Below are positions 35,627 to 51,892 of a DNA stretch of 64,000 bases, piece by piece. The notes beneath the pieces are model-generated. The model was not told the DNA's origin. It saw only the letters and a list, made by a program, of their open reading frames with translations, and searched no databases. This DNA is from an uncultured Bacteroidia bacterium. Lineage in GTDB: Bacteria > Bacteroidota > Bacteroidia > Bacteroidales > UBA932. Location: NCBI GenBank assembly GCA_902792815.1, contig CADBAY010000011.1, forward strand, positions 1-64,000, given 5' to 3'. The position numbers and the translations under genes were made by a program. How positions within the stretch are numbered: position 1 is the stretch's first letter; every line of letters starts with the position of its first letter.

Positions 35627-36625
35627 TCAATATTCAAACTGGAAGAGCACAGGATTGTGGTCCGAAAGATACGGAAGGCCATAATTGGACCCTTCTACCC
35701 AATACTTCCCCGGCTTGAGGGACTTACAGCCGTAATAGATATGGTCTATTATGCTGCTGCTCTTGCCGAAACCGTTGAAAGTGGCGCTGTTCCGATCGGT
35801 GCCGGAGCCCGTCAGGCGGGCATACTCCATACTGTCGTTCAACGGCTTAAGTTCGCTTGAATCGGAGGTGGTGTTGAGGTCGCCCACATGGATTATCAAC
35901 TTTGAAGAGTTCTTCAGGTCGGTCTCCTTGGTGAGGGCTTTCATCTGCGAGACCATAAGCTCAGCCGAATTCTTGCGGGCATCGGCACTCTTGTGATCGT
36001 AGTGGGTCGGGAAGAAATAGACAAGTGCATCGTTGTTCTTCTTGTCTTTAAGGACCACATAAACGGTGACCCTCCGGCAGGCCGAATTCCAGGCGCCGTA
36101 TGTGCCGTCGGCATTCTTGGCGGGTATTTGGCGCGTAGAATTGTCGAGCCAGAAGAAGTCTTTCTGCACCAGTTCGAAACGGCTTTTCAGGTACATTATT
36201 CCAACACCTTCCCCGCCTGCATTTGCCACCGACGAGCCGGAAGAGCTGTCACGGCACACATCGTAATAACCGTATTCCGAATTGAAATACGACGACGAGA
36301 AGAAGTTGGACTGCTCCTTGCGCACTTCCTGCAAGCCTATCAGGTCGGGCTTGGCGGTATCGATGAACTGCTTCACCGCCGGAGCGCGAACCGACCAGGC
36401 CGCGCTGCTGCCATTTGGATAAGTGTCGGCGGTATTGGCATAACGGATGTTGAAAGTACATATCGTCATGCTTGCCGTACCGCCCGGAGTGTCGGGTTCT
36501 TCCGGTTCCGGGGTCACAGGAGCGGGAGGCGGGGTAACCGGATTCACTACATCCTTGGGCACGCAGGCAATAAAGGCTGCGTGCACCAGGATGAGCGATA
36601 AAAACAATCTAATGGATTTTGTCAT
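35627..36625 (-). CDS. Endonuclease/exonuclease/phosphatase (EEP) family lipoprotein
   Basis: 332 aa. Signal peptide MTKSIRLFLSLILVHAAFIAC (lipobox, Cys21), Pro/Glu linker, then an EEP-fold phosphoesterase: TFNIRYAN, the metal-binding Glu in IGLQEVRKEQ, FFPTHYDHKS, HVGDLNTTSD and the C-terminal catalytic SDHNPVLF. The active-site residues are intact. Members cleave phosphodiester or phosphomonoester bonds of nucleic acids, inositol phosphates or sphingomyelin; the substrate cannot be told from sequence. It lies 5 nt after the PKD/propeller lipoprotein gene and next to the SGNH gene. Confidence 0.9.
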   Translation of the reverse strand: MTKSIRLFLSLILVHAAFIACVPKDVVNPVTPPPAPVTPEPEEPDTPGGTASMTICTFNIRYANTADTYPNGSSAAWSVRAPAVKQFIDTAKPDLIGLQEVRKEQSNFFSSSYFNSEYGYYDVCRDSSSGSSVANAGGEGVGIMYLKSRFELVQKDFFWLDNSTRQIPAKNADGTYGAWNSACRRVTVYVVLKDKKNNDALVYFFPTHYDHKSADARKNSAELMVSQMKALTKETDLKNSSKLIIHVGDLNTTSDSSELKPLNDSMEYARLTGSGTDRNSATFNGFGKSSSIIDHIYYGCKSLKPGKYWVEGSNYGLPYLSDHNPVLFQFEY

Positions 36626-36630
36626 TATTT

Positions 36631-38523
36631 TTATTCCATTTTACAAGTCTTGCGGGGATTACCGCCAAGCTGCGACCATCCGTCCGCGGGAGCGGCCACG
36701 CCCTTCACTGCCGAGAGAGTAGGTTTGCCGTCCTTGACTCCGTTGCAGTAGATGGTGCCGTCGGGAGCGATGGTAGGCGAAGTACAGACACTCTGACCGA
36801 GAGTGATTTCCGCAATCTTGACTCCGTCAGGCCCGAGCTTGACCAGTTTGCCGGCGCTTTGGTCGGTGGCTGTCTCGTTATAATAGACATTGCCATTCTT
36901 GTCAACGGCAGGGCTGCCCATAACCTCGCCGCCGGCGGGAGTGTACCACTTCTTGGTTCCGTCGGGATTGACGGCGGTGATACCGGTCGTGGTGCTCACG
37001 TAGATGGTTCCGTCTTCACCGATAACGGTACCGAGGCTGTAGTACTGCTTGTTCTTACCGTCGAGGTCAAGACGCCACTCGTGAGTCGCTCCGGCTTCCT
37101 TGTCATACTTGCCAAGGTCGTAGCACATAAGTACGGCATCCGCCTCCGAACCGCCGGCGCCCTCGGCCTTGCCGAAGAGGATGTACACCTTATTGCTGCC
37201 GTCGATGGCCATGTAGCTGGTGAAACCTATCTCGGTATTGGTCTGGCCGATGTAGCCGAGCATGAAGGCGTTCTGTCCTGCGGCTGCGCCGTAGTACTTC
37301 CAGCCGTCACCCTCTTTCCAGTACACACGGGTACCGTACTTGCTGTCGGTATGCACCATGAAGGTCTCTTCCTTGGTTGCGGCAAGTCCGCCGTGCGAAC
37401 CACGCTTTACCTGGAGATATCCGGCGTACGAGCCGTCACCCTTGTAGAGCAGGAGTCCGTTGTCGCCGGAACCCGAAGGCCAGAGCTCAGGGAAGTCGGC
37501 AGGTGCAGGATTACGCTTGGTAGCAACGAAGATGTGGTCGTTCAGAACCAGAGGTATGACATTGCAGAACCAGCCATAGCCATAAGCATAGTACCATTTC
37601 TGCGTGCCGTCCGGATTGACTGCATAGATACCGGACTCATAGGTCCTGGTCTTGTCCTGGGTATCCTTGTTACCCACGATCACGAACACGGTACCGTCTG
37701 CATCTACCGAAGGAGTGCAGGAAGAGAAGTTCTTGGTGGTGCCGGGGTTGTGGCTGCCGGCATCGAAACTCCATTTCTTCTCTCCGTCCTTGCCGATTGC
37801 AACCAGATGCAGGCCGCTGGAGAAGGCGTAAATGGTATTTCCGTCGGGGCTTACGGCAGGTGAAGAGAATATCACGTCGCCGTCGCCGTCGTACGAATTG
37901 GACCACAGGAGTTCGATAGAGGCCTCGCTCTTTTCTACGTGGACGGTCTTTGTGACGGAGCCCTTGCCCCTCTGGTTGTCGGTTACGGTGAGAGTAACTT
38001 CGATGTCGCCGTACTCGTTGAACGTGAACTTGGGATTCTGCTCCATAACCGTGTTGGCGCCGATCCTCCACTCCCAGCCGATAATCTTGCCGTCAGGGTC
38101 GGTGGACTTGTCGGTGAACTGCACCTCGTCGCCTGCGGTGATGCCGCTGGACGGGCTGTAGTCGAAGTCAGCTATAGGACGTTTGTTGGTGTCCTGTACG
38201 GTGATGGTCTTGGTGCAGGTGCCGCTGACACCGCTGTTGGTGACGGCGGTGAGCTTGATTTCCTTCTCGCCCGGAGTATCGAACGACAAAGGAGTTTCCA
38301 GCTGCTTGCCCCACACATACTCGGAGCCCCATTCCCATTTGCACGCAACGATAATGTCGTTGGTGGCGGTGGAAACGTTGGTTATCTTGATATCCTCGTA
38401 TATCTCGTACACATCCTTGTCGGTGGTAAAGTCGGCGTTGACCGACACCTTGGGCTTGTTCAGGCACGAGGCCGCAGCGAGCAAGGCTAGAGAAATGAGG
38501 AGTAATCTGTTAACTCTTTTCAT
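36631..38523 (-). CDS. Lipoprotein with PKD-like domains and PQQ-like beta-propeller
   Basis: 630 aa. Lipobox AASC (Cys20). Two PKD-type Ig domains at about 25-112 and 115-200 (PIADFDYSPSSGITAGDEVQFTD, DGKIIGWEWRIG, VTLTVTDNQ). A beta-propeller built from repeats such as SPAVSPDGNTIYAF, PSVDADGTVFVIV, GEDGTIYVSTTTG and SPAVDKNGNVYYN fills the rest. No enzyme motif is apparent. In position it corresponds to the surface-binding protein (SusE/F-like) of a Sus operon, so ligand binding is the best guess. Confidence 0.82.
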   Translation of the reverse strand: MKRVNRLLLISLALLAAASCLNKPKVSVNADFTTDKDVYEIYEDIKITNVSTATNDIIVACKWEWGSEYVWGKQLETPLSFDTPGEKEIKLTAVTNSGVSGTCTKTITVQDTNKRPIADFDYSPSSGITAGDEVQFTDKSTDPDGKIIGWEWRIGANTVMEQNPKFTFNEYGDIEVTLTVTDNQRGKGSVTKTVHVEKSEASIELLWSNSYDGDGDVIFSSPAVSPDGNTIYAFSSGLHLVAIGKDGEKKWSFDAGSHNPGTTKNFSSCTPSVDADGTVFVIVGNKDTQDKTRTYESGIYAVNPDGTQKWYYAYGYGWFCNVIPLVLNDHIFVATKRNPAPADFPELWPSGSGDNGLLLYKGDGSYAGYLQVKRGSHGGLAATKEETFMVHTDSKYGTRVYWKEGDGWKYYGAAAGQNAFMLGYIGQTNTEIGFTSYMAIDGSNKVYILFGKAEGAGGSEADAVLMCYDLGKYDKEAGATHEWRLDLDGKNKQYYSLGTVIGEDGTIYVSTTTGITAVNPDGTKKWYTPAGGEVMGSPAVDKNGNVYYNETATDQSAGKLVKLGPDGVKIAEITLGQSVCTSPTIAPDGTIYCNGVKDGKPTLSAVKGVAAPADGWSQLGGNPRKTCKME

Positions 38524-38541: not shown

Positions 38542-40365
38542 TTACCAGCCGGGGTTCTGCTTGAGAGCTTCATTCTTCTGGATGACGTTCTCGGGAACCG
38601 GGTAAATGTACATATTGTCGTTCCACTTGCGGGGCATTTCATAACCCAGCAGGTAGCCGCCTGAAGGATCGTCGGCAATCTTGACAGCCTTCTGATGATC
38701 GTTAAGTGTCATGGCGATGGCCTTATATGTGCCGTTCTTCTGATAATTGGCATCAGCGGTCACGTACACGTCGTTCTCGCCGTCGCCGTTCAGGTCGACA
38801 GGAGTGTCGAGCCCCGGAATGTAAACGCCGTCCCAGGGAGCGTTCTGCCAATCGGCACCGCAAGCCCAGCGCTTAAGGTCGTCCATACGGAAGCCCTCGA
38901 GTATAAGTTCGATGGCCCTGTCGCGGCGCACCTCAAGAATGACGGGATTGGTCACGTTGGGGTAGAAAGTCTGCTGCAGATAGGTATCCACCACTGTGGG
39001 GAGCTTGTCAAGGTCTCCTCCGGAGATACCTGCCCTGCGGCGCAGGGCGCCGATAGTTTTGCTCCAGTCATCCGCGGTGATGGATCCCAGCTCGGCCTTG
39101 GCCTCGGCGTAGTTGAGCAGAACCTCGGCATAGCGCAGCAGCGGCACGTCGTTGTCGTTGGAACGGGCGTTGTCGTAGTTCACATCGTCCATGACATACT
39201 TGGTGTACTGGTAGCCGGTGAGCGAAAGGCTCATGTCGGGGCTGGTACGGACATACTTGCCGCTCTTGTCCTTGCGGGTGTAATCGGCTCCGCGTATGGT
39301 CTGGCAAAGGCGGGCGTCACGGCCGGTGGTCTCTTCGACGAAGGTCTTGTACGCGCCGTTGGCTTTCTTCTCGTTGTAGATGGAGCCGTCTTCGTTCAGG
39401 TAAGTCTTGGCGAAAGCACGGGTCATCGAGAGGTGAGGGCCGTAAGAAGTGGAATTGTAATACCAGTTGGCCTCGCCGAGCACCGAAAGGTCTTTGCTCT
39501 GCGTGTAGGCAAGCATCACTTCTTCGGTCACAGGGTTGTCGCTGATGAACAGGTCGCGGTAGGCCCCGCGGCCACCCGACTCATAAACAGTACCGGTGTG
39601 GAGCTTGTAAGGGCCTTCGTCCATAACCTTCTTGGCAGCCTCTGCAGCGGCCTTCAGCAGTTCATCGGCGGTGATGGTGCACCCCTCAAGGTACTGGGCG
39701 CCATACTTGCTTCCGTTTGCGTGATATTTGCGGAAAGTTCCTTCGAACAGGCAGATACGGCTCTTGATAGCAAGGGCGGTCCACTTGTTTACGGTATTGG
39801 AGTAAGGAGTGATGCCGGTTACCGTAATGTTATCCGCAGCAAAATCCAGGTCTTCGATGATGTTGGTAATGATAACATCACGGCTGTCCTGAGTCTTGTA
39901 CAGATCTTCATCGACGGGGTCGAGAGGTTTACTGATCCAAGGCACTTTACCATAGGTAACGAGCTTGTCGTAGTAGAGCAGGGCGCGGAACAGACGGGCA
40001 ATGCCGGTATAGTTGTTGCGCACCTCTTCAGGCACTGTAGGATCGGTATTGTACTGTATGAAGTAGTTTACGTTACGGATGCTGCCCCAGCTCCAGGACG
40101 TGGAAGTGCTGACGGTATATGCACCCTGCTCGTAGGTACCGATGTTCATCTTTGCCGAGTGGTCATGCATCACATTGATTCTGTGAGCATTGCTATAGTC
40201 GGGCAGATAGTTGTAGAAGCCGTAGACATAGTTGCGCAGACCTGACTCGTCGCCGAAGACTATAGCCCTTCCGGCCTCGGCCTGGGGCGCCTCGGTAAGG
40301 TCGCAGCCGACTGCTGTGAGGCCCAGTGCAACGAATGCTGTAAGAATGTAGAATATGTTTTTCAT
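38542..40365 (-). CDS. SusD/RagB-family lipoprotein (second locus)
   Basis: 607 aa. Signal peptide MKNIFYILTAFVALGLTAVGC (Cys21). SusD helices and C-terminal RagB block (NPVILEVRRDRAIELILEGFRMDDLKRW; end YPVPENVIQKNEALKQNPGW). It has a near-consensus Shine-Dalgarno (AGGAGG, 40371-40378 region, minus), rare for this group and perhaps used to match SusC output. It is 15 nt after susC. Confidence 0.95.
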   Translation of the reverse strand: MKNIFYILTAFVALGLTAVGCDLTEAPQAEAGRAIVFGDESGLRNYVYGFYNYLPDYSNAHRINVMHDHSAKMNIGTYEQGAYTVSTSTSWSWGSIRNVNYFIQYNTDPTVPEEVRNNYTGIARLFRALLYYDKLVTYGKVPWISKPLDPVDEDLYKTQDSRDVIITNIIEDLDFAADNITVTGITPYSNTVNKWTALAIKSRICLFEGTFRKYHANGSKYGAQYLEGCTITADELLKAAAEAAKKVMDEGPYKLHTGTVYESGGRGAYRDLFISDNPVTEEVMLAYTQSKDLSVLGEANWYYNSTSYGPHLSMTRAFAKTYLNEDGSIYNEKKANGAYKTFVEETTGRDARLCQTIRGADYTRKDKSGKYVRTSPDMSLSLTGYQYTKYVMDDVNYDNARSNDNDVPLLRYAEVLLNYAEAKAELGSITADDWSKTIGALRRRAGISGGDLDKLPTVVDTYLQQTFYPNVTNPVILEVRRDRAIELILEGFRMDDLKRWACGADWQNAPWDGVYIPGLDTPVDLNGDGENDVYVTADANYQKNGTYKAIAMTLNDHQKAVKIADDPSGGYLLGYEMPRKWNDNMYIYPVPENVIQKNEALKQNPGW

Positions 40366-40380
40366 TGCTGTTCCTCCTTA

Positions 40381-43300
40381 TTATTTGTCTATATGTCCGA
40401 AGGTAACTTTCACACCGACACTGATACTCTTCATCGTCGGGAAGTTGTATCCGTCACCGGTGGTTTCAAGCACGCCGTCGGCGCCGTAGATATTAGCGGT
40501 CACGTCAACATCGCGGGTCCACTTGTAAACCGGCGACCAGGTCCAGAGGTTCTCGCCCGCCACGAACACGGAGACCTTCTGAAGGCCGGCCTTGCGGGTA
40601 ATCTTCTCGGGGATGTTGTAACCTATCTGGACGCTCTTGAGGCGTATGTAAGAAGCATCCTGCAGATACCTTGTATTGGCATTCACGCGGCCTTTGTAGA
40701 AAGGAGCGAAGTAACCGGTGTAAAGAGGCAGGTACGCGTTGGGATTCTCGGGAGTCCAGTAATTTCCCAGGTGCCAGGAAGGCATCTGGTTGTAAGGCCT
40801 GTTGTACATGCCCCAGAAAGCGGAAGACTCGTTGTCGGGATACCAGTCCTGTTTGCCCACGCCCTGGAAGAATGCGTTGGCGTAGATACCGGCCCACTCC
40901 ACATCGAAACCGAAGGAATAGATGTAGCGGGGCTCGCTGTTACCGATGATTTTGCGGTCGCCCGGATCGTCGGCGGTGTTCTTGCCGCGGTCGATATATC
41001 CGTTCTTGTTAAGATCCACGAAGTGCATCTGGCCGGGAAGTATGTTATAGCTTTCGGTCTGCTGCATCAAGGGGTTGTAGTGAGCCTGTCCGGCTGCTGC
41101 CGCCATAGCTTCGTCGGCATCGATCTGGGCCTGGTTCTGATACAAGCCGTCGCACTCGAAGCCCCAAAGCTCTCCGAGCACCATACCCTCGTAGTATGAA
41201 TTATTGTAGGCATTGTTGCTCAGCGACTTGAGGGCGTTGTTGTATTTGTCGATGACAGAATAATAGTCGGCCAGGGTGGCGTGGACGCCGTACTTGAAGG
41301 GATGTCCTCCAAGCTTTATGGCATCGTCCCAGCCGAGAGTGATTTCAAAGCCGCGGGTGGTCATTTCGGCAAAGTTGCCCTTAGGCGAACTGGCGCCGTA
41401 TACATCGGGGAGGGTAGGTCCTACGGTGTACATATTCAGGGTCTTACGTACATACACGTCGCCGGTGAAATTCAGCCTGCCGGAGAACAAACTCAGGTCA
41501 ATTCCTCCGTCAATGGTCTGGGCCGTTTCCCAGGTCAGAGACTCGGGGATAGGGGCGGGAGCGCTGGTGTAGCGTACCTTCTGGCCGTTGATAATGCGGC
41601 CGTTATCGAAATCGAAGGTTTCATCGTAAGCATAAACGCTGACGTTACTGTTGCCGAGCGAACCGTAGGATGCGCGGATCTTGAGGTTGGAAATGATGCT
41701 CTGGTCGATATTGAACCAAGGTTCCTGGCTCACCCTCCAACCGGCGCTCACCGAGGGGAAGAATGCCCAGCGCTGACGGGCGGGGAACTTGGACGAGCCA
41801 TCGTAGCGGCCGTTGATCTCGAGCAGGTAGCGCTCCGCGAAGTTGTAATTGAAACGGAAGAAAGCACCGGCCGTACGCCATTTGCTGTAGTCGCTGGTAA
41901 TGCTCTTGTTGTCAAGGCCGAGTGCCAGGTTGAGCTGGTCCACATTAGGGGCAAGCAGGCCGTCGTTGTACGCATAGACATTGCGGTATGTCTGCTGCTC
42001 GTAGTTGTAACCGAGCAGGGCCTTGAAGTTGTGCTTGCCCACCGTATCCTCCCACTCGATCCACTCGTTGGTGGCAAGGTAATCGTAAGTGCGGAGAGTT
42101 TCGCTGATGTAGTCGGCAAGGCCCTTGATTTCCGCGAGCGACTCTATAATGCCTTCATACCTTGAGAAGGGTGAAGGAAGACGGTGAACATGGGTATCGT
42201 ACGAGCGGGCCCTGTAGGTAAAGTCGGCGTTCAGGCGCAGGCGCTTGTCGAAGAATGTGGCCTTGGCGGCCACGGTGTTCTGCGCCTGGCGGTTGGTGTA
42301 AGTACGGTTGCTGCCGCCGTAGAGGATATCACCTACCGAATACACGCCGCTGTAGGACAGGGTGCCGTCGGGGTTGATGATGGGCGAGCAGGGGTGCCCT
42401 TCGTCGGCGATGTTACGCCAGATGTTGCCGCCGGCCTCGCTCTGGGTCTCAGGCATCACGTACTTGCTGTAGGCGATGTCGGTGTTGGATGTGATCTTGA
42501 GCCAGGGAGTAACCTGGTAGCCCACCTTCACACGGCCGTTGTAGAGCTTATAGGAGTCGGGGTTCACCTGGCTGTCGAACAAACCGTTGTTGTCGTAGAG
42601 TCGGGCAGAGACATAGTAATCGAATTTGTCGTCCGCTCCCGAGATGGACAGGTTGTGGGTCTGGGTGAAGGTAAAGTCCTTGTACAGGGCGTCGTAGTAA
42701 TCGGTTCCTTTATGGAAATACAGCCAGCGGCCTTTGGTGATAAGGGAGCCGTCGGAAACCAGGGTTTCGTAATTCCCGCTTTCATGCCTCAGGCGATATT
42801 CGTCGAGCCATGCCGTGGTGAAGTCCATGGTCTTGTTGATGGCGGTAGGATTACTGCCCTTGTAGTTGTACCATGCCTTGTAGAAGTGCTCGGCCCACAC
42901 ATAACCGTCTGACACCACGTCAGGCATTGCGGTCGGCCTTTCGAAAGAAAGGTTGGTCTGGTAGCTGACGGTGGCGGTGCCCTTCTTGGCGTTTTTGGTG
43001 GTGATGAGCACAACGCCGTAAGGAGCCCTGGATCCGTAGATAGCCGAAGAGGCGGCGTCTTTGAGCACCGACACGCTCTCGATATCGTTAGGGTTCAGGA
43101 GGCTGGCGTTGCCTTCCACACCGTCGATGAGCACAAGCGCGCTGCCGCCTTGTCCGATAGAGGTTCTTCCTCGGATGTTGAACGACGGCGAAGAGTTTGG
43201 ACGGCCGTCGGTAAACTTGAGGTTGAGGTTGGCCACGCGGCCCTGGAGCATCTGCGCCAGGTTGGCGTTGGGACGGCCGTCAAAGGTTTCGGCCCCCACC

Positions 43301-43689
43301 TGGTCGACCGCACCGGTAAGGTTGGCCTTCTTTTGAGTACCGTAACCTACGACCACCACCTCGTCGAGCAGTTCGTCGTCGGAAGAGAGAGTAACATCAA
43401 TCCTCGATCGGCCGCGTACCGGTATTACCACGGTCTTAAAACCGATGCTCTGAATTGAAAGGGAAGCGTTGGAAGGAACAGTGATGGTATAATTACCGTT
43501 CAGGTCGGTAGCCACACCGGTAGTTGTCCCCTCCACCATTACACCAGCACCTATAACCGGAGCCCCCTGATCGTCAAGGACCTTACCGGATACGGTGACC
43601 TTGCCGGTGCCCTGTCCCTGCCCCTGGGCAAATGCCGGAGCGGCGATGAACAGTAACACCAGCAGCAACAGTATGCTTTTGGCTTTCAT
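40381..43689 (-). CDS. SusC/RagA-type TonB-dependent transporter (second locus)
   Basis: 1102 aa. Signal peptide (MKAKSILLLLVLLFIAAPAFA), short Gln/Gly stretch, carboxypeptidase-regulatory-like domain (VSGKVLDDQGAPVIGAGV), plug with LLDEVVVVGYGTQKKANLTGAV and NIRGRTSIGQGGSALVLIDGVEG. Barrel ends VGVKVTFGHIDK. First gene of a five-gene operon: susC, susD, PKD/propeller, EEP, SGNH. The operon has no glycoside hydrolase or local regulator. Confidence 0.96.
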   Translation of the reverse strand: MKAKSILLLLVLLFIAAPAFAQGQGQGTGKVTVSGKVLDDQGAPVIGAGVMVEGTTTGVATDLNGNYTITVPSNASLSIQSIGFKTVVIPVRGRSRIDVTLSSDDELLDEVVVVGYGTQKKANLTGAVDQVGAETFDGRPNANLAQMLQGRVANLNLKFTDGRPNSSPSFNIRGRTSIGQGGSALVLIDGVEGNASLLNPNDIESVSVLKDAASSAIYGSRAPYGVVLITTKNAKKGTATVSYQTNLSFERPTAMPDVVSDGYVWAEHFYKAWYNYKGSNPTAINKTMDFTTAWLDEYRLRHESGNYETLVSDGSLITKGRWLYFHKGTDYYDALYKDFTFTQTHNLSISGADDKFDYYVSARLYDNNGLFDSQVNPDSYKLYNGRVKVGYQVTPWLKITSNTDIAYSKYVMPETQSEAGGNIWRNIADEGHPCSPIINPDGTLSYSGVYSVGDILYGGSNRTYTNRQAQNTVAAKATFFDKRLRLNADFTYRARSYDTHVHRLPSPFSRYEGIIESLAEIKGLADYISETLRTYDYLATNEWIEWEDTVGKHNFKALLGYNYEQQTYRNVYAYNDGLLAPNVDQLNLALGLDNKSITSDYSKWRTAGAFFRFNYNFAERYLLEINGRYDGSSKFPARQRWAFFPSVSAGWRVSQEPWFNIDQSIISNLKIRASYGSLGNSNVSVYAYDETFDFDNGRIINGQKVRYTSAPAPIPESLTWETAQTIDGGIDLSLFSGRLNFTGDVYVRKTLNMYTVGPTLPDVYGASSPKGNFAEMTTRGFEITLGWDDAIKLGGHPFKYGVHATLADYYSVIDKYNNALKSLSNNAYNNSYYEGMVLGELWGFECDGLYQNQAQIDADEAMAAAAGQAHYNPLMQQTESYNILPGQMHFVDLNKNGYIDRGKNTADDPGDRKIIGNSEPRYIYSFGFDVEWAGIYANAFFQGVGKQDWYPDNESSAFWGMYNRPYNQMPSWHLGNYWTPENPNAYLPLYTGYFAPFYKGRVNANTRYLQDASYIRLKSVQIGYNIPEKITRKAGLQKVSVFVAGENLWTWSPVYKWTRDVDVTANIYGADGVLETTGDGYNFPTMKSISVGVKVTFGHIDK

Positions 43690-44134: not shown

Positions 44135-45151
44135 TTATTTGCGGAAGAGGCCGAAGACGGAGGAGCCGGAGCCGGACATGGCGGCGTAGGAGGCGCCGCG
44201 GCGGTAGAAGTCGGCAATGAGGGCGGGGATTTCGGGGTGGCGGGGGCAGACGGTGGCTTCGAAGTCGTTGACGACGAGGCCGCGCCATTGCTCGACAGGG
44301 AGTTTCAAGGCTTCCCGGAGGGGTAGGAGATTCTTCGACTCGCTTTGCTCGCTCAGAATGACAGCGGACGGAGACTCAGCGATGGCAGCAGTGCCGGCGG
44401 TTCCATACCGACCCTGGTCATTACGTGCCGGCACTTCCGGGCTCGCAGCAGCGGCGTCCTGCCGACTCTGGCCCTTACGAACAGGAGGCTGGATGCCGCT
44501 GCTGCAATCCAACCAACGCCAGCGATCGCGCGGAACTATGCCGCCGTAAGCCTCCCTGGTACTCACGGCCACAGGCTTGCCGTCCGGCCCGAGAGGAATC
44601 TCCACCCGGAGCTCATAGCCCGACAGGTCAATGTCGAAAGGTTCCAGCACCTCTCCCCTGCCGGTAGCGAACATCGGCCGGCAATAAAACAAAGCGTCAG
44701 CGACCGGGAGCGTCTGAGGGTTGGTAGTGCCGACAAAAAACGCGCAATCAGAACCAAGGCGCGCAGCATAGGCGGCGAGAGCGGCATCTGAAAGCCCCAG
44801 CTCCCCGATCTCATTAAGAGCACGAAGCATAAAGGCCGCATCGGCACTGCCGCCTCCGAGCCCGGCCCCCACAGGGGCGAACTTTTGCAAACCTATACGC
44901 ACAGGAGGCAACTGCGGGAAATCGGCCTTCAGAAGCCGCCAGGCACGCACCGTCAGGTCGTCCATCGGGTCCCAGTCCACTCCTTCCGCCCGCTCAATCT
45001 CGATAGAAAGCTCCGCCGCGGGCTCCACATCCAGCACATCTGCCCAACCATAGTACGGCACGAACAGCGTCTCGATGTCGTGGAAGCCTTCGGGACGGCG
45101 GCGCAGGACATTGAGCCCGACGTTCACTTTGGTGCAGGTGCGCAGAATCAT
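44135..45151 (-). CDS. ispE: 4-diphosphocytidyl-2-C-methyl-D-erythritol kinase with in-frame repeat insertion
   Basis: 338 aa, against about 260-290 usual. GHMP kinase of the MEP isoprenoid pathway. N-terminal KVNVGLNVLRRRPEGFHDIETLF, ATP loop PVGAGLGGGSADAAF (about 93-107), C-terminal NDFEATVCPRHPEI and MSGSGSSVFGLF are intact. About 60 extra residues (about 213-275) lie between RDRWRWLDC and LREALKLPVEQW and are encoded by palindromic repeats (44328-44505), including SAVILSEQSESKNL. All other motifs fit, so the enzyme is probably functional with a surface loop. It overlaps sufD by 4 nt and ends the psuK-suf operon. Confidence 0.92.
   Translation of the reverse strand: MILRTCTKVNVGLNVLRRRPEGFHDIETLFVPYYGWADVLDVEPAAELSIEIERAEGVDWDPMDDLTVRAWRLLKADFPQLPPVRIGLQKFAPVGAGLGGGSADAAFMLRALNEIGELGLSDAALAAYAARLGSDCAFFVGTTNPQTLPVADALFYCRPMFATGRGEVLEPFDIDLSGYELRVEIPLGPDGKPVAVSTREAYGGIVPRDRWRWLDCSSGIQPPVRKGQSRQDAAAASPEVPARNDQGRYGTAGTAAIAESPSAVILSEQSESKNLLPLREALKLPVEQWRGLVVNDFEATVCPRHPEIPALIADFYRRGASYAAMSGSGSSVFGLFRK
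44328..44363. repeat. Small interspersed repeat inside ispE
   Basis: The minus strand reads TGTCATTCTGAGCGAGCAAA followed by GCGAGTCGAAGAATCT, a short palindromic sequence type that recurs across many bacterial genomes. Here it is translated in frame as VILSEQSESKNL. Confidence 0.7.
44391..44505. repeat. Two tandem palindromic units inside ispE
   Basis: Unit 1: GTGCCGGC (44391-44398) pairs with GCCGGCAC (44427-44434). Unit 2: GCAGCAGCGGC (44445-44455) pairs with GCCGCTGCTGC (44495-44505). The loops are related to each other (CCATACCGACCCTGGTCATT versus CCTGCCGACTCTGGCCCTTA), so the two units are diverged copies. Confidence 0.65.
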
Positions 45152-45717
45152 AAGGCTCGGTTAAGCACAGGCGCGAGGAAGGCCTCCACCTGCATTGCTC
45201 GCGCTTCATCCTCGGGAATGCCGCGGCTGCGCATATAAAACAGTTCTTCAGGATTGAGATATCCGGTAGTAGCGCCGTGCGAACACTGCACATCGTCGGC
45301 ATAAATCTCCAGCTGCGGCCGGGCCTCGCAGAAAGCGCCCTCGGAGAGCAACAGAGAGTGGCACTGCTGGTGCGCATCGGTCTTGACGGCACCGGGAGCC
45401 ACGTACACAAGACCGTCGAATTCGGCCCTCGCGCTCCCACTCACCACGCCCTTGAAAAGCTGCTCCGAATGGCACCCGGGAGCATTATGGCGCACAATTA
45501 CCTGCAGCCGGACATTCTCCGAGCCGCTGCAGCGCCAGGCCCCCGCAAGGTCGAGCGAAGCCCCGGGACCGTCGAGATGGAACTCCAGCGCCCGCTCGCA
45601 GCTCACGCCCTCGGGAACGATGAGAGTCAGATGCAGCTGCTCGCCACTCTCCAGATGAGTCACCGCCGGGAGCGGATCGCGCCCGACTACGCACACCAAT
45701 TTATCCGTTGATGCCAT
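45148..45717 (-). CDS. sufD: Short SufD-like Fe-S assembly protein
   Basis: 189 aa; SufD is usually over 400 aa. Only the C-terminal half of the SufBD beta-helix and the SufC-binding end are present, with the diagnostic [20 protein letters not shown] (about 136-155) and [18 protein letters not shown]. The start overlaps sufC by 17 nt and the stop overlaps ispE by 4 nt, so it is an intact, tightly coupled gene rather than a fragment. It probably pairs with SufB on SufC dimers. Confidence 0.88.
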
Positions 45718-46453
45718 CGTACCCTTGTTTTTCGATCAGGTCAACAAGCTCGCGTCCGCCGGTACTGACGATGCGCCCGTCCTTGAGCACATGCACCACG
45801 TCCGGAACTATGTACTCCAGCAGGCGCTGGTAGTGAGTAATAACTATAGATGCAGTCTCGGCAGTGCGCAGACGGTTCACGCCGTCCGCCACTATGCGCA
45901 GGGCGTCCACATCGAGGCCGCTGTCGGTCTCGTCCAGAATACTCAGCACAGGCTCAAGCATCGCCATCTGGAAAATCTCGTTGCGCTTCTTTTCGCCGCC
46001 GGAAAAGCCCACGTTCACCTCTCTCTTGGCAAATTCGCCCTTCATCTGCACCAGGGCCATCTTTTCCTTCAGGAGCTTAAGGAACTCCGCGGGCTTTAGC
46101 TCGCTCTCGCCTGCAGCCTTGCGCCTGGCGTTGAGAGCGGCTTTCATAAAGTTGGTGATGCTCACCCCGGGAATCTCCACCGGATACTGGAAGCTCAGGA
46201 ATATACCTGCCCAGGAGCGCTCCTCGGGAGGCATGGCGAGCAAGTCGCGGCCGGCATAAGTCACTGAGCCCGAGAGCACTCTGTAGTCCGGCCGTCCGGC
46301 CAGGACCGCGCTCAGGGTTGACTTTCCAGCCCCGTTGGGCCCCATAACTGCATGCACCTCGCCGCGGCGTATGGTAAGGTTCACGCCTTTGAGGATTTCA
46401 CGTCCTTCGATTCCGGCGTGCAGGTCTTTTATTTCAAGTAGAATGTCTGACAT
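45701..46453 (-). CDS. sufC: Fe-S cluster assembly ATPase SufC
   Basis: 250 aa ABC-type ATPase of the SUF Fe-S assembly scaffold. Walker [11 protein letters not shown]-loop region [13 protein letters not shown], signature [13 protein letters not shown], Walker [16 protein letters not shown], and [18 protein letters not shown], all as in SufC. It is separated from sufB by pnuC and the GH97 fusion gene; its start is 10 nt after the fusion stop. Confidence 0.97.
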
Positions 46454-46463
46454 AAATGCTTAT

Positions 46464-49400
46464 TTAGAACCCCAGCACCGCTGCTATGGGATAATGGTCG
46501 GAGATATAGGGTTTACCCTCGAAGCTCCGGTCCACCACGTAGAACTCACGTGCTGAAGAGAAGCCTCGGTAGTAGATGTAATCGATTATTTTGGCGCGGG
46601 TTGCGCCATACCCGTTAAACGACGGCTTGTCGCTGGTGACGGGCGCCTGGAGACGCGCGTCAAGCATCTTGCCCTCAAGGCTAAGAAGGCACTCGTCCCC
46701 CGGCTCCACGTTAAAGTCGCCGGTAAAGATGAGAGGCACCCCGGGGGTCATTTCCTCAACACGGTCCACAACCATAGAGAGTCCGCGCTTGCGTGCTTCC
46801 ACTCCCCTGTGGTCGAGATGGGTGTTGACGAAGTAAAACTCCCTGCCGCTGCTGCGCTCCCGCAGTTTAGCCCATGTGGCGGTACGGGGATACTTGGCAT
46901 CCCAGCCCACCGAAGGCACGCCGGGAGTCTCCGAAAGCCACCAGGTGCCGCCGTCAAGCAGCTCAAGGACATCGGTACGGTAGAACACCGACATCCTCTC
47001 GCCCGCGTCCTTACCGTCGTCACGGCCCACGCCGAAGCCTTTGTATTCGGGGCAATTCTGCAGAATGAATGCTTCCTGCTCGGGATAGGCTTCCTGGATG
47101 CCGAAAACATCGGGCCTCTCGCTGCGCAGCATTGCGGCAACGGCCTCGCGCCTCTGAGGCCAGGAGTTCTCGCCGTCCTTGGCCCCGGCATTGCGGATGT
47201 TGAACGACATAACCTTCAGTCCTACAGCCTCCAGAAGCACTTTTTCAATCACTTTATACCCGGCAAGGTTGGGATGCACGGAGTCTAAAGCATAAGCGGG
47301 ATCAAGAGCTCCGTCAGGGGTGCGGAGTGCTGAATGATAATCGGCGAGCGGAATGTTGTGCCCGGCCGCATAATCCTTGATCAAGCCGTTGAGCTGCTCT
47401 ATCTGCGGCCTGGGGTCACCCAGTTGCTTGCGCCAGCCTATGGTGCCGGCGGGGCAAAGGGTGCAGAGAATCGGTTTGATGCCGTTGACGCGGGCAAGTT
47501 CCACCATCGACACGATATTGCCGAAGCAGTTCTCGACCGATATATAACCGTTGTTGCGTGCAATATCGTTGGTGCCTATGAGGAGTGCCATGTATTCCGG
47601 ATGCAGGTCGATCACGTCCGGCCTGATACGCGAGAGCAGCTGAGCGGTGGTCTGCCCGCTGATACCGCGGCCCACGAAGCCGTGCTCCTCCAGCCACTGA
47701 TGGTCAAGCCTCTCCCAGTTCCAGGTAATAGAGTCGCCGAACAGCACCATCTTGGGTGCGGAGGTCATTTCGGCATTTTGCTTTTCGTAAACTCCGTACT
47801 GGGGCCAGTCGGAATCGGTCTTCTGCCAAGGCTCGGGAGTGCTGCGCAAAATCGCCGCCCAGCCGCCGCCAGGGGCCATTTTGATACTGATTCTGCCCCC
47901 CTCGGGGAAATCAAGCCACTGGTGCTTGTAGTCCCTCGCCGCCCTGTGGGCGTTGGCCCCGTCGGCGAAGACTTCCAGCAGCGGCGTCCCCTCTATGAAG
48001 GAAAGGTCGAGGGTCATTTCCCTCTCGTTCCAGTCGGTAAGGGCGCCTATGTACCAAGTATCGCCCTTGCGGCGCGCAATAGCCACATATTCGCCCGCCT
48101 TGCCTTCAAGCGCACGGGTTTCATCCCACACAGTGGGCACTTCGGCAATGAATTTAAGGCACTCGCGCTCTTTTTTGTAATTGGACGGCGAGTCGCAAAG
48201 CATGGTGAGAGGCGCGTCGAAGATGACGTACTCGGCCAGCTGACGGCAGCGGGTCCCCTGCGACATAGCCTCCGAACTCACGTAGCGGAAATTACCCTTG
48301 GTGGCATTGCGCATAGCTCCCTGCGTATAGTCGCAAGGCCCGGCGACAAGGCGCACGAAGGGGATGCTCACCTCGTAAGTAACGAGATCAATATCGTAAG
48401 GCTTCTGGCCCTTGGCGTTCTCCAGGCCGTACACGCCCTCGAAGTTCACCACGTTGGGCCAGGTGCGCTGGAGTCCCGCTGGCTTGAAAGCTCCGTGGAA
48501 ATCGACCATCAGGTGATAGCGCGCGGCGGTTTCGGCTGTACGGCGGTAGAAATCAACCATGGGCTGGTCGTCGCGGTCCATAAAGTCGACCTTGAAGCCC
48601 TTGACGCCCATCGCTGAATATTCGCGGCAAGCGCGCTCCATATCCTTTTCGAACGCCCAGTAGCCGGCCCAGAGTATGAGCCCCACGCCACGCTCTCCGG
48701 CATATCGGCAGAGCTCCGGAAGATCTATCTCGGGCACCACCTGGAACAGGTCGGCCTGTTTATTTACCGCCCATCCCTCGTCAAGAATAACGTATTCTAT
48801 GCCGTTGCGGGAAGCAAAGTCGATATAGTATTTGTACGTGTCGTTGTTGACTCCGGACTTGAAATTAACTCCGTACACGTTCCAGGCGTTCCACCAGTCC
48901 CAGGCCACTTTGCCGGGCTTTACCCAGCTGAAATCGACTCCCGGATCCCTCTCGCGCCCGAGCAGCCAGGGAAGGTCGCAGGTCAGAAGGTCTTTATCTT
49001 CTTTGGAAACTACTACGATACGCCAAGGGAAAGCCTCGCCGGCATCAGCCTTGGCGATATAGTCCTCGCGCGAGCGCACAAGGCCCTGGAGCATATTGTG
49101 GCCGCCCTGCTCGATATCTTTTGGATATGGAGCGAACACGGCCTCGAGGCTAGTGTCGCCGTCCTCGTTGGAAAGATACATTCCGGGATAGTTCAGCAGG
49201 TCGCTCTCGGTGATGCAGATCTTCATTCCCCCGGGCCCGTCCAGAGTGACGGGAAGGAAGGCGAGGCGGCCCTTCTCCCATTTGCTTATTTCGGTGCGGG
49301 TATAAGTAGATTCGAAAGAGGTAAAGAACTGGCACTCAAAGCTATCGTTGCTTTTACGTGTATATGGCACGAATGCCTTGCAGTCGCGCCCGATATTGAA

Positions 49401-49838
49401 TGCCGCCTGCTCGCCGTTAACCTTGAAGGGGGCTTTGCGGTCGGCCACAAAACGGTAAGCGGCACCCTCGTCGTAGGCGCGGAATACTATCGAATAGCCC
49501 TTACAGCGGAGCGTAAGTTCATTATATGCCTCCTTAACCTGAGCCTGGCGGTACACGACAGGCGCAAGAATGCTGTTTACGCTGCTCTTGACGGCCTTTT
49601 TAACTTTGACGTCCTTGCCGAACACGGTGCCGTCGTCAAGAGTCATGCTAAGCGGCGAGGGCTCGATGATGGCAGAGCCGCACATCTTCACCGACCAAAG
49701 GGTCTGCGGACCAGCCGAAATATCTATGGCAAGCTCTCCTGAAGGAGACAGGAGCTTGTACGTCTTGACAGCCGCCCCGGCAGGGAACGCCGTTAGCGCA
49801 AGGAGCAGGGCAGCTATTATTAAACGCCTGATTTTCAT
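46464..49838 (-). CDS. GH97-SGNH-EEP trifunctional fusion protein
   Basis: 1124 aa, signal peptide ending AFPAGA. Residues about 24-675 are a GH97 glycosidase (SPSGELAIDISAG; WDWWNAWNVYG; GFKVDFMDRDDQ with Asp417). MVDFHGAFKP near 447 has Gly where the inverting members have a catalytic Glu, so a retaining, alpha-galactosidase-like enzyme is more likely. Residues about 690-870 are an SGNH hydrolase (LFGDSITWNW near 700, IGTNDI, DSVHPN). Residues about 873-1124 are an EEP phosphoesterase (VMSFNIRNAG, FGIQEAY, TGDFNVEPGD, SDHYPI). All catalytic motifs look intact. The gene lies between pnuC and sufC with gaps of 12 and 10 nt. Confidence 0.93.
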   Translation of the reverse strand: MKIRRLIIAALLLALTAFPAGAAVKTYKLLSPSGELAIDISAGPQTLWSVKMCGSAIIEPSPLSMTLDDGTVFGKDVKVKKAVKSSVNSILAPVVYRQAQVKEAYNELTLRCKGYSIVFRAYDEGAAYRFVADRKAPFKVNGEQAAFNIGRDCKAFVPYTRKSNDSFECQFFTSFESTYTRTEISKWEKGRLAFLPVTLDGPGGMKICITESDLLNYPGMYLSNEDGDTSLEAVFAPYPKDIEQGGHNMLQGLVRSREDYIAKADAGEAFPWRIVVVSKEDKDLLTCDLPWLLGRERDPGVDFSWVKPGKVAWDWWNAWNVYGVNFKSGVNNDTYKYYIDFASRNGIEYVILDEGWAVNKQADLFQVVPEIDLPELCRYAGERGVGLILWAGYWAFEKDMERACREYSAMGVKGFKVDFMDRDDQPMVDFYRRTAETAARYHLMVDFHGAFKPAGLQRTWPNVVNFEGVYGLENAKGQKPYDIDLVTYEVSIPFVRLVAGPCDYTQGAMRNATKGNFRYVSSEAMSQGTRCRQLAEYVIFDAPLTMLCDSPSNYKKERECLKFIAEVPTVWDETRALEGKAGEYVAIARRKGDTWYIGALTDWNEREMTLDLSFIEGTPLLEVFADGANAHRAARDYKHQWLDFPEGGRISIKMAPGGGWAAILRSTPEPWQKTDSDWPQYGVYEKQNAEMTSAPKMVLFGDSITWNWERLDHQWLEEHGFVGRGISGQTTAQLLSRIRPDVIDLHPEYMALLIGTNDIARNNGYISVENCFGNIVSMVELARVNGIKPILCTLCPAGTIGWRKQLGDPRPQIEQLNGLIKDYAAGHNIPLADYHSALRTPDGALDPAYALDSVHPNLAGYKVIEKVLLEAVGLKVMSFNIRNAGAKDGENSWPQRREAVAAMLRSERPDVFGIQEAYPEQEAFILQNCPEYKGFGVGRDDGKDAGERMSVFYRTDVLELLDGGTWWLSETPGVPSVGWDAKYPRTATWAKLRERSSGREFYFVNTHLDHRGVEARKRGLSMVVDRVEEMTPGVPLIFTGDFNVEPGDECLLSLEGKMLDARLQAPVTSDKPSFNGYGATRAKIIDYIYYRGFSSAREFYVVDRSFEGKPYISDHYPIAAVLGF

Positions 49839-49850
49839 ATCATTGACAAT

Positions 49851-50450
49851 CTATTCGTTTTGGGAGTATTTGCGCCTCCAGCCAATAAGCGACCAAATGC
49901 CGTTGGCAAGGTAAAGGGCGCTGACTATAGGCATGACGTACAGGCCGGAGCTGATGTAGAGCACTATATTTGCCACATTCACCACAAGCCACACGATCCA
50001 GCACTCCCAGTACTTCCGGGCACTCAGGAACTGGGCCGTGAGGGTGAGCATCAGAATGAAAGAATCAAGCAGTGGCTGCGGGTCCGGGGCGAAAACTTCG
50101 GGCCATCTCTGGGGGAGCCACTGCAGGGCCTTGGCCCAAAGTATGCCGCACAGCACAACCAAGGTAAACATATTCACCCACTGCCAGGGCTTCATCTTGC
50201 CGATTTTCAAATCCCCCTTGGAGTTCTTCTCCTCCTCCTTGGGATGCGTCCAGCGCCAATGCCCGTAAAGGTTGATTCCGAAGGCCACCGGCTGCAGCAG
50301 CATTGCGCTGTACAGATGCTGCCGCCAGAACAGCACGAACAGGAACACATTGTAGATGTATCCCACCCAGAAGTTGTACTTGGAGCCGCGGCCCGCAAGG
50401 AACACGCAGCTAAGGCCGAGTATGGCCGACACTATCTCTACCCAGCTCAT
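49851..50450 (-). CDS. pnuC: PnuC-family nicotinamide mononucleotide/riboside transporter
   Basis: 199 aa, multi-pass (about six to seven hydrophobic segments). Conserved PnuC features are [42 protein letters not shown] and [19 protein letters not shown]. It imports nicotinamide riboside or related vitamin precursors by facilitated diffusion. The start overlaps the sufB stop by 4 nt. Confidence 0.92.
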
Positions 50451-51892
50451 CCTACAGCCCCCTCCAAAGACACGCTCAGCAGCTTCTGAGCTTCGATTGC
50501 GAATTCCATGGGCAGACGGCTCAACACCTCTTTGGCGTAACCGCCTACTATAAGGGCCGTCGCATCTTCGGGACCTATACCCCTCTGGCCGCAGTAGAAG
50601 AGCTGGTCGTCGCTGATCTTGGAAGTGGTGGCCTCATGCTCCACTACCGCCTGCGGGCAGAAATTCTTGATCACCGGGAAGGTATGGGCTCCGCACTGAG
50701 AACCTATCAGCAGAGAATCGCAGGACGAGAAATTCCTTGCTCCCACCGCGCAGGGCCCCATACGCACGAGGCCTCGGTAGCTGTTCTCGCTGTGCCCGGC
50801 TGATATACCTTTTGAAACTATGCGGCTGCGGGTCCCGCGCCCGAGATGTATCATCTTGGTGCCGGTATCGGCCTGCTGGTAATTATTGGTCATGGCTACA
50901 GAATAGAATTCCGAAGAACTGTAGTCCCCTTTGAGCACGGTGCTAGGGTACTTCCAGGTAATGGCCGAGCCCGTCTCTACCTGAGTCCAGCTCAGGTGCG
51001 AGCCCTCGCCGCGGCAAAGCCCCCTCTTGGTCACCAGGTTAAGTATGCCGCCGCGGCCCTGCGCATCGCCGGGATACCAGTTCTGGACGGTGCTGTATTT
51101 CACGTCGGCGTCTTTTTCCACTATTATTTCGACCACCGCGGCATGCAGCTGGTTGGTGTCGCGCATAGGGGCGGTGCAGCCCTCCATATAGCTCAGCTTC
51201 GCCCCCTCGTCGGCCACTATGAGAGTACGCTCGAACTGCCCGGTGCCGGCCGCGTTGATGCGGAAGTAGCTGCTAAGTTCCATAGGGCATTCGACCCCCT
51301 TGGGAACATAGCAGAACGAGCCGTCCGAGAACACTGCCGAATTGAGCGCCGCAAAGAAATTGTCCCCCGCGGGCACCACGGTGGCAAGGTACTTTCGCAC
51401 CAGGTCGGGATGCTCTTTTACCGCCTCGGAGAAGGAACAGAAGATTATTCCTTTGTCTGAGAGAGTCTTGCGGAAGGTGGTGGCAACGCTCACCGAATCG
51501 AATACGGCATCGACAGCAACCTCCTTGGATTTCACTCCGGCAAGCACTTCCCTCTCCTTAAGGGGAATGCCCAGCTTGTCGAAGGTTTCCATAAGGGCAG
51601 GGTCGATCTCGGTAGGGCGCTCGCTGTCTTTAATGGGGGCAGCGTAATAGATAATGTCTTGATAATCAATCTTTGGCATCTTGAGGTGCCCCCAACGGGG
51701 CTCCTTCATAGTCTGCCAGCGCCGGAAGGCGTCAAGCCGGAAGTCAAGCAGCCACCCGGGCTCCCCTTTCTTGGCCGATATGAGGCGGATGATATCTTCG
51801 TTCAGACCCTTGGGTACATACTCCTGCTCGACGTCAGTCACGAAGCCTTGTTTGTATTCTTGCTGCGCAAGGTCTTTAATCAGCTCGTCCAT
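50447..51892 (-). CDS. sufB: Fe-S cluster assembly scaffold SufB
   Basis: 481 aa, full length. N-terminal [15 protein letters not shown] and [15 protein letters not shown], central [21 protein letters not shown] and EGCTAP, C-terminal [19 protein letters not shown] with the conserved cysteine, and [18 protein letters not shown]. It forms the SufBC2D scaffold. It is 11 nt after psuG. Confidence 0.97.

Follow-up and report, generated by a model that had tools for sequence, protein, structure and literature searches.

A putative three-domain GH97-SGNH-EEP enzyme encoded in a suf operon, probably formed in two steps, the second within a polysaccharide utilization locus

How does one secreted chain come to carry a glycosidase, an ester hydrolase and a phosphoesterase, and how did its gene come to lie in an Fe-S operon? 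The question is raised by a 64,000-nucleotide stretch of DNA (the window; contig CADBAY010000011.1, assembly GCA_902792815.1) from an uncultured Bacteroidales bacterium of the lineage UBA932, in which a gene fusing GH97, SGNH and EEP domains lies between pnuC and sufC. A preliminary description of this DNA had proposed that the three domains act on a substrate bearing a glycosidic, an ester and a phosphate bond. We found that the fusion protein is a genuine three-domain chain and appears to be exported. From its residues, the GH97 part is predicted to be a retaining alpha-galactosidase, the SGNH part a carbohydrate or acyl esterase, and the EEP part a phosphoesterase that depends on metal. It is probable, in our view, that this trifunctional exported enzyme had a two-step origin, and that the fusion is the scar of a deletion inside a polysaccharide utilization locus (PUL) located in the suf operon. 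The parts of the gene are as follows (aa, amino acids).

46464..49838, minus strand: the entire fusion gene, 1124 aa and a stop codon, free of internal stops
49764..49838, minus strand: N-terminal signal peptide, aa 1-25, hydrophobic, without lipobox cysteine (by eye)
47844..49763, minus strand: GH97 retaining alpha-galactosidase-type domain, aa 26-665 (Asp418, Glu473)
47220..47813, minus strand: SGNH hydrolase domain, aa 676-873 (Ser703, Gly728, Asn757, Asp852, His855)
46467..47219, minus strand: EEP phosphoesterase domain, aa 874-1124 (Asn880, Glu916, His1007, Asp1041, Asn1043, Asp1086, Asp1114, His1115)

The Pfam scan placed GH97_N at residues 30-293, Glyco_hydro_97 at 302-568, GH97_C at 570-664, Lipase_GDSL_2 at 699-863 and Exo_endo_phos at 877-1115, each above its cut-off. 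All three GH97 domains (N-terminal, catalytic and C-terminal) are complete, and no linker separates SGNH from EEP. The protein also passed the NCBIfam equivalog model NF053844 for retaining alpha-galactosidase (residues 11-664, 994.4 bits against a cut-off of 800). The preliminary description was right in reading a single polypeptide with complete GH97, SGNH and EEP domains; the catalytic Asp of KVDFMD, which it numbered 417, is residue 418, the motif starting at 416.

These residues are well kept among relatives. Asp418 is conserved in 21/21 aligned rows, and the SGNH set (GDS, Gly, Asn, Asp-x-x-His) in each of the 15 aligned rows that have an SGNH domain. The full set of eight EEP catalytic residues is present in 50 of 55 rows (near-copies included), the other five being gapped and none substituted. 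The GH97 enzyme of the 3a24/5e1q type is Bacteroides thetaiotaomicron BT1871, and D418 and E473 correspond to its D415 and E470, the nucleophile Asp and acid/base Glu. Asp418 aligned with an Asp of 3a24, at a position that is Gly in 5e1q. According to PMC1249566, this beta4 position is Asp in 97b, c and d and Gly in 97a and e; the fusion GH97 has Asp there, as 97b-like members do.

We found an equally unbroken open reading frame of 1124 codons, 91% identical, in a sibling genome (G046; L009 and L135 are one record; G, C and L numbers are our handles for genomes, contigs and loci). Between the two genes, dN/dS (Nei-Gojobori) was 0.073 for GH97, 0.093 for SGNH, 0.051 for EEP and 0.13 across the domain junction, at an overall dS of about 0.6; these values show purifying selection in each domain. 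Together with the unbroken fusion in a second genome, this rules out a frame error unless both assemblies went wrong in the same way. Among the matches listed, the triple architecture occurred in 2 and GH97-SGNH in 13 of 400 genus genomes, a set sampled from a larger group, with the window's own genome included and mostly two candidates scored per genome. A scan of genome contigs gave one triple and 11 GH97-SGNH among the best 80 of 167 relatives, the window's own record possibly being excluded. The relatives' records are Bacteroidales metagenome-assembled genomes, several of the nearest loci carrying yak, water buffalo or sheep in the title, and the host appears to be a herbivore gut bacterium. 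With so large a number of species, the genus may be the Cryptobacteroides of GTDB.

The genes around the fusion belong to the suf operon.

50447..51892, minus strand: sufB (profile match)
49851..50450, minus strand: pnuC, directly upstream of the fusion (nicotinamide riboside transporter model)
45701..46453, minus strand: sufC, directly downstream of the fusion (ABC ATPase; synteny in other genomes)
45148..45717, minus strand: sufD, short form (profile match)

The order is sufB-pnuC-fusion-sufC-sufD-ispE, with gaps of 12 bases to pnuC and 10 bases to sufC; we take the ABC ATPase gene beside sufB and sufD to be sufC, and the last gene to be ispE. No SusC/SusD pair adjoins the fusion, the nearest lying at 38542-43689, beyond sufC, sufD and ispE. 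Ten of 14 sufB loci in other genus members, G011 among them, have sufB-pnuC-sufC without an insert. The other four show sufB-sufC (G215), an inserted PUL (G110), no sufC in reach (G088) or a cut-off locus (G050); the fifteenth genome scanned (G004) gave no sufB match at threshold. The window SufD has only 189 aa, matching the C-terminal part of SufD models, and similarly short frames (194-200 aa) stand at the sufD position in L009, L118 and L121.

In G110, the gap between pnuC and sufC is filled by a PUL of about 37 kb. Its first part encodes a Glug protein, a PD-(D/E)XK transposase, a second Glug protein, a GH127-like protein, GH97-SGNH and a calcineurin-type metallophosphoesterase (MPE; MetallophosN/C). 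Then follow SusC (named by BLAST), a SusD-like protein (by resemblance to an L119 gene), a BACON protein, two MPEs, a Glug protein and the fourth MPE, and finally a lipoprotein-type EEP gene and a GlpT/PgtP-like antiporter ahead of sufC. As in G110, GH97-SGNH lies inside a SusC/SusD locus in L119 and L120. In G332, pnuC is followed by GH97-SGNH and then directly by antiporter codons 1-37, where the contig ends, and G275 and G026 have pnuC-GH97-SGNH-sufC.

A near-fusion was observed in G050 (L014/L125), where the GH97-SGNH stop TGA overlaps the EEP start as ATGA. This EEP has its own lipoprotein-like signal and is followed by the antiporter and then another GDSL protein; a second, partial copy (L159) reads GH97-SGNH, MPE, EEP. 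In G221, EEP and antiporter genes stand as a pair ahead of SusC, a SusD-like gene and one more gene, the last of which by eye resembles those of the G110 locus. The window EEP is 73% identical to that of G110 over 251 aa (62% for G050), and the two are sisters with support 94/97 in a tree of 20 rows. In the GH97 tree (45 rows), the triple pair formed one clade (100/100), placed nearest to suf-located GH97-SGNH genes including that of G110 (89/72).

This series is most simply explained by a PUL in the suf operon whose shrinkage took different courses from line to line. As a first step, GH97 and SGNH would have fused earlier within one clade of the genus. As a second step, in a PUL between pnuC and sufC, a deletion would have removed all genes between GH97-SGNH and EEP, one endpoint lying in the 3' end of the GH97-SGNH gene and the other past the signal peptide of the EEP, with the reading frame preserved. 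The antiporter downstream of EEP would have been lost as well in the window's line. The GH127-like protein has no match in the genome of the window species. That this species lost the calcineurin-type phosphoesterase altogether was considered and rejected, as two relatives of 56-58% identity lie elsewhere in its genome.

Several points weigh against this account. The 89/72 branch is only moderately supported, and four GH97-only rows nest inside GH97-SGNH, which is therefore not monophyletic; the first fusion was thus either lost once or made twice. Reading by eye found no remnant of the deleted genes at the fusion junction, so we infer the deletion from gene order alone. Catalysis by each of the three domains is predicted from its residues. 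As an alternative in the opposite direction, G110 may have gained its PUL around an old GH97-SGNH gene.

EEP domains are also joined to other enzymes elsewhere in the genus. In 31 genus genomes of 95% completeness or more, 23 of 109 EEP matches lay in open frames of at least 450 aa, against 0 of 25 in 58 same-order genomes outside the genus, where the longest frame was 349 aa (Fisher p 0.007, kinship ignored). Among the 23, which include the G046 triple by its identity to the window's, 12 carry a second domain above the Pfam cut-off or a second EEP, eight were scanned and showed none, and three (G036:C8, G041:C18, G032:C7) were outside the scan. Partners seen here and in further genus genomes are SASA esterase, GH78, glycerophosphodiester phosphodiesterase (GDPD), PF00756 esterase, alpha-amylase, GH27, BNR, DUF6259, DUF4861, a PQQ-type propeller and a second EEP. 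On an EEP tree of 46 rows we counted 13 switches between the fused and the free state, of which eight or more are forced by well supported branches; this is near random placement. Because EEPs of the genus join so many unrelated enzymes, three domains on one chain are not by themselves proof of one substrate.

It is quite possible, though short of an even chance, that the deletion was a near-neutral event joining two useful enzymes that have export and expression in common and act on different substrates. Both the scatter of EEP fusions over the tree and the restriction of long EEP frames to the genus favour this. On the other side, the fusion has remained intact in two species at the dS given above, with low dN/dS in each domain, and the neighbouring genes in related PULs have similar functions.

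Other EEP genes were seen in passing. The window carries a free EEP gene after a PKD/PQQ-type gene, SusD and SusC (35627-38523, minus strand); in G081 (L167), a SusC/SusD locus encodes two proteins that each unite an EEP with a domain like this PQQ-type protein, the second instance of fused neighbours. Two more EEP fusions are encoded in the window's genome, one with alpha-amylase (L157, C7; open frame of 923 codons) and one with DUF6259 (L158, C3; open frame of 990 codons). EEP-GDPD fusions occur in L151, L180 and L181, and in L151 an MGH1-like glycosidase gene and a gene that by eye is sugar-kinase-like lie just upstream.

From family knowledge and the intact residues, GH97 would, after export, remove alpha-galactosyl groups with retention, SGNH would take off acyl or acetyl groups, and EEP would hydrolyse a phosphate mono- or diester using a divalent metal. 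In the periplasm, the fusion protein may trim material that other systems release, either oligosaccharides that are galactosylated, esterified and phosphate-bearing, or glycerophospho-compounds.

Could all three cuts fall on the same molecule, as the preliminary description proposed? That one substrate carries alpha-galactoside, ester and phosphate bonds, and that the fusion was selected for this, is possible, though less likely than not. The domains alone, as noted, argue for it weakly; independent support comes from the neighbours of the relatives' GH97-SGNH genes. An MPE gene lies directly downstream of GH97-SGNH in five loci (L119, L120, L122, L124 with two copies, and L159) and an EEP gene in L125, and a GlpT-like antiporter adjoins EEP in L125, L197 and L218 and GH97 in L132. 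Against a single substrate, the same EEP subfamily has members joined to a rhamnosidase, an SASA esterase, a PF00756 esterase and a GDPD, so that partners are not substrate-specific, and GH97-SGNH stands without a fused EEP in the 13 genomes listed above. The window locus also has no SusC/SusD, fitting loss of a dedicated uptake system.

We compared the GH97 neighbourhoods by counting. An EEP or MPE lay within 3 kb in 9 of 21 clade loci, against 2 of 67 GH97 loci outside the clade (Fisher p 2e-5, kinship ignored); two of the nine are the fused genes themselves and two are GH97-only. For EEP alone, with the fused genes excluded, the counts were 3/19 and 1/67. The comparison is biased in that the MPE profile was built from the clade's own genes, several flanks are short and the species are related. 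It omits duplicates and the genome's own inverting-type GH97 (L001, L003, L010-L021, L135-L140), and one of the 21 (L134, in G316) was scored as GH97-only but its contig ends near residue 626, so the architecture beyond is unseen. The idea that EEP always goes with GH97 was rejected, since just one of the 67 outside loci (L022-L088) has EEP within that distance.

The closest solved relative of the antiporter is GlpT (1pw4, 171 bits). It has arginines aligned at R45 and R269, the substrate-site arginines of GlpT, and it reached no cut-off among the curated NCBIfam models. In the window's own genome, a relative of 63% identity follows a GDPD-like gene. A phosphate-bearing substrate is plausible because the ancestral locus pairs GH97-SGNH with phosphoesterases of two unrelated folds and with this antiporter. 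Two observations speak against the link: calcineurin-type genes are common (8-12 matches in each of five genomes), and several antiporter relatives have neither EEP nor GH97 adjoining, namely those of L215 and L216, of L214, where a GDPD lies alongside, and of L217, where an MPE is found two genes off.

Overall, the neighbourhoods favour a phosphate-bearing substrate, with glycerophosphate polymers and lipid head groups as candidates. In a fuller and rather doubtful form, the ancestral locus would have been a system for glycerophosphate-bearing, alpha-galactosylated, acylated material, either a Gram-positive teichoic-acid-like polymer or plant galacto- or phospholipid head groups. The antiporter would have imported its organic phosphate (e.g. 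glycerol-3-phosphate) against phosphate, and the system would have been compressed in the window's lineage to a trifunctional polypeptide expressed from the Fe-S operon.

The EEP superfamily includes nucleases, and the EEP domain might accordingly be a secreted nuclease and not a sugar or glycerol phosphoesterase. PRK05421, a general EEP-family model, gives it a weak match of 22 bits, where the cut-off is 144, and related EEPs have similarly weak matches, far below cut-off, to models for MnuA nuclease and ExoIII. We regard this as improbable, the best solved relatives being 3g6s, 3mpr and the chain named mannosyl-6-phosphatase, 4c1r. That separate genes were joined by an error of assembly or frame, which the preliminary description had named as grounds for refutation, is scarcely credible: the compared relatives are mostly draft metagenome assemblies and the parts are adjacent overlapping genes in G050, but the separately assembled G046 gene is continuous, with low dN/dS even across the junction.

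The natural series of no insert, full PUL, partial loss and fusion suggests how PUL shrinkage can give birth to a multicatalytic enzyme. In herbivore-gut Bacteroidales there are loci where an alpha-galactosidase-esterase stands together with phosphoesterases and an organophosphate antiporter, and this company makes their substrate testable. In the genus, moreover, EEP phosphoesterases are often joined to glycosidases and esterases.

Compared with solved structures, each part is familiar. Residues 29-662 cover nearly the whole chain of 3a24 and 5e1q (797 and 794 bits), which are GH97 only, whereas the fusion protein continues with SGNH and EEP. The SGNH domain resembles 3p94 (E 1e-50), 4iyj, 4ppy and 4hf7, named as GDSL-like lipase or protein or putative acylhydrolase; they share its catalytic blocks and length of about 200 aa, but are free-standing chains. 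The EEP domain matches 3g6s, 3mpr and 4c1r at E about 1e-43, and WLSETPxVPSxGWDA is common to it, 4c1r and 3mpr; these too are free-standing, whereas the fusion EEP sits C-terminal to GH97-SGNH. The match to 4c1r, which is presumably BT3990 and owes the name mannosyl-6-phosphatase to its depositors, has E 4.6e-43, with 3g6s scoring slightly higher.

As a whole, the protein is a new domain combination among multicatalytic glycan enzymes, and its origin is unusually clear. No triple of this kind appeared among the matches listed from open-licence PMC text (title and abstract start); the preliminary description, too, knew of no characterised enzyme with such an architecture. The nearest parallels are a CE15-GH8 multicatalytic PUL enzyme (PMC8417218) and fused acetyl-feruloyl esterases (PMC7110780), likewise from Bacteroidota and likewise with several catalytic domains per chain. 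Unlike the fusion protein, they are described, in title and opening of the abstract, with no phosphoesterase domain named and no PUL collapse in a housekeeping operon mentioned.

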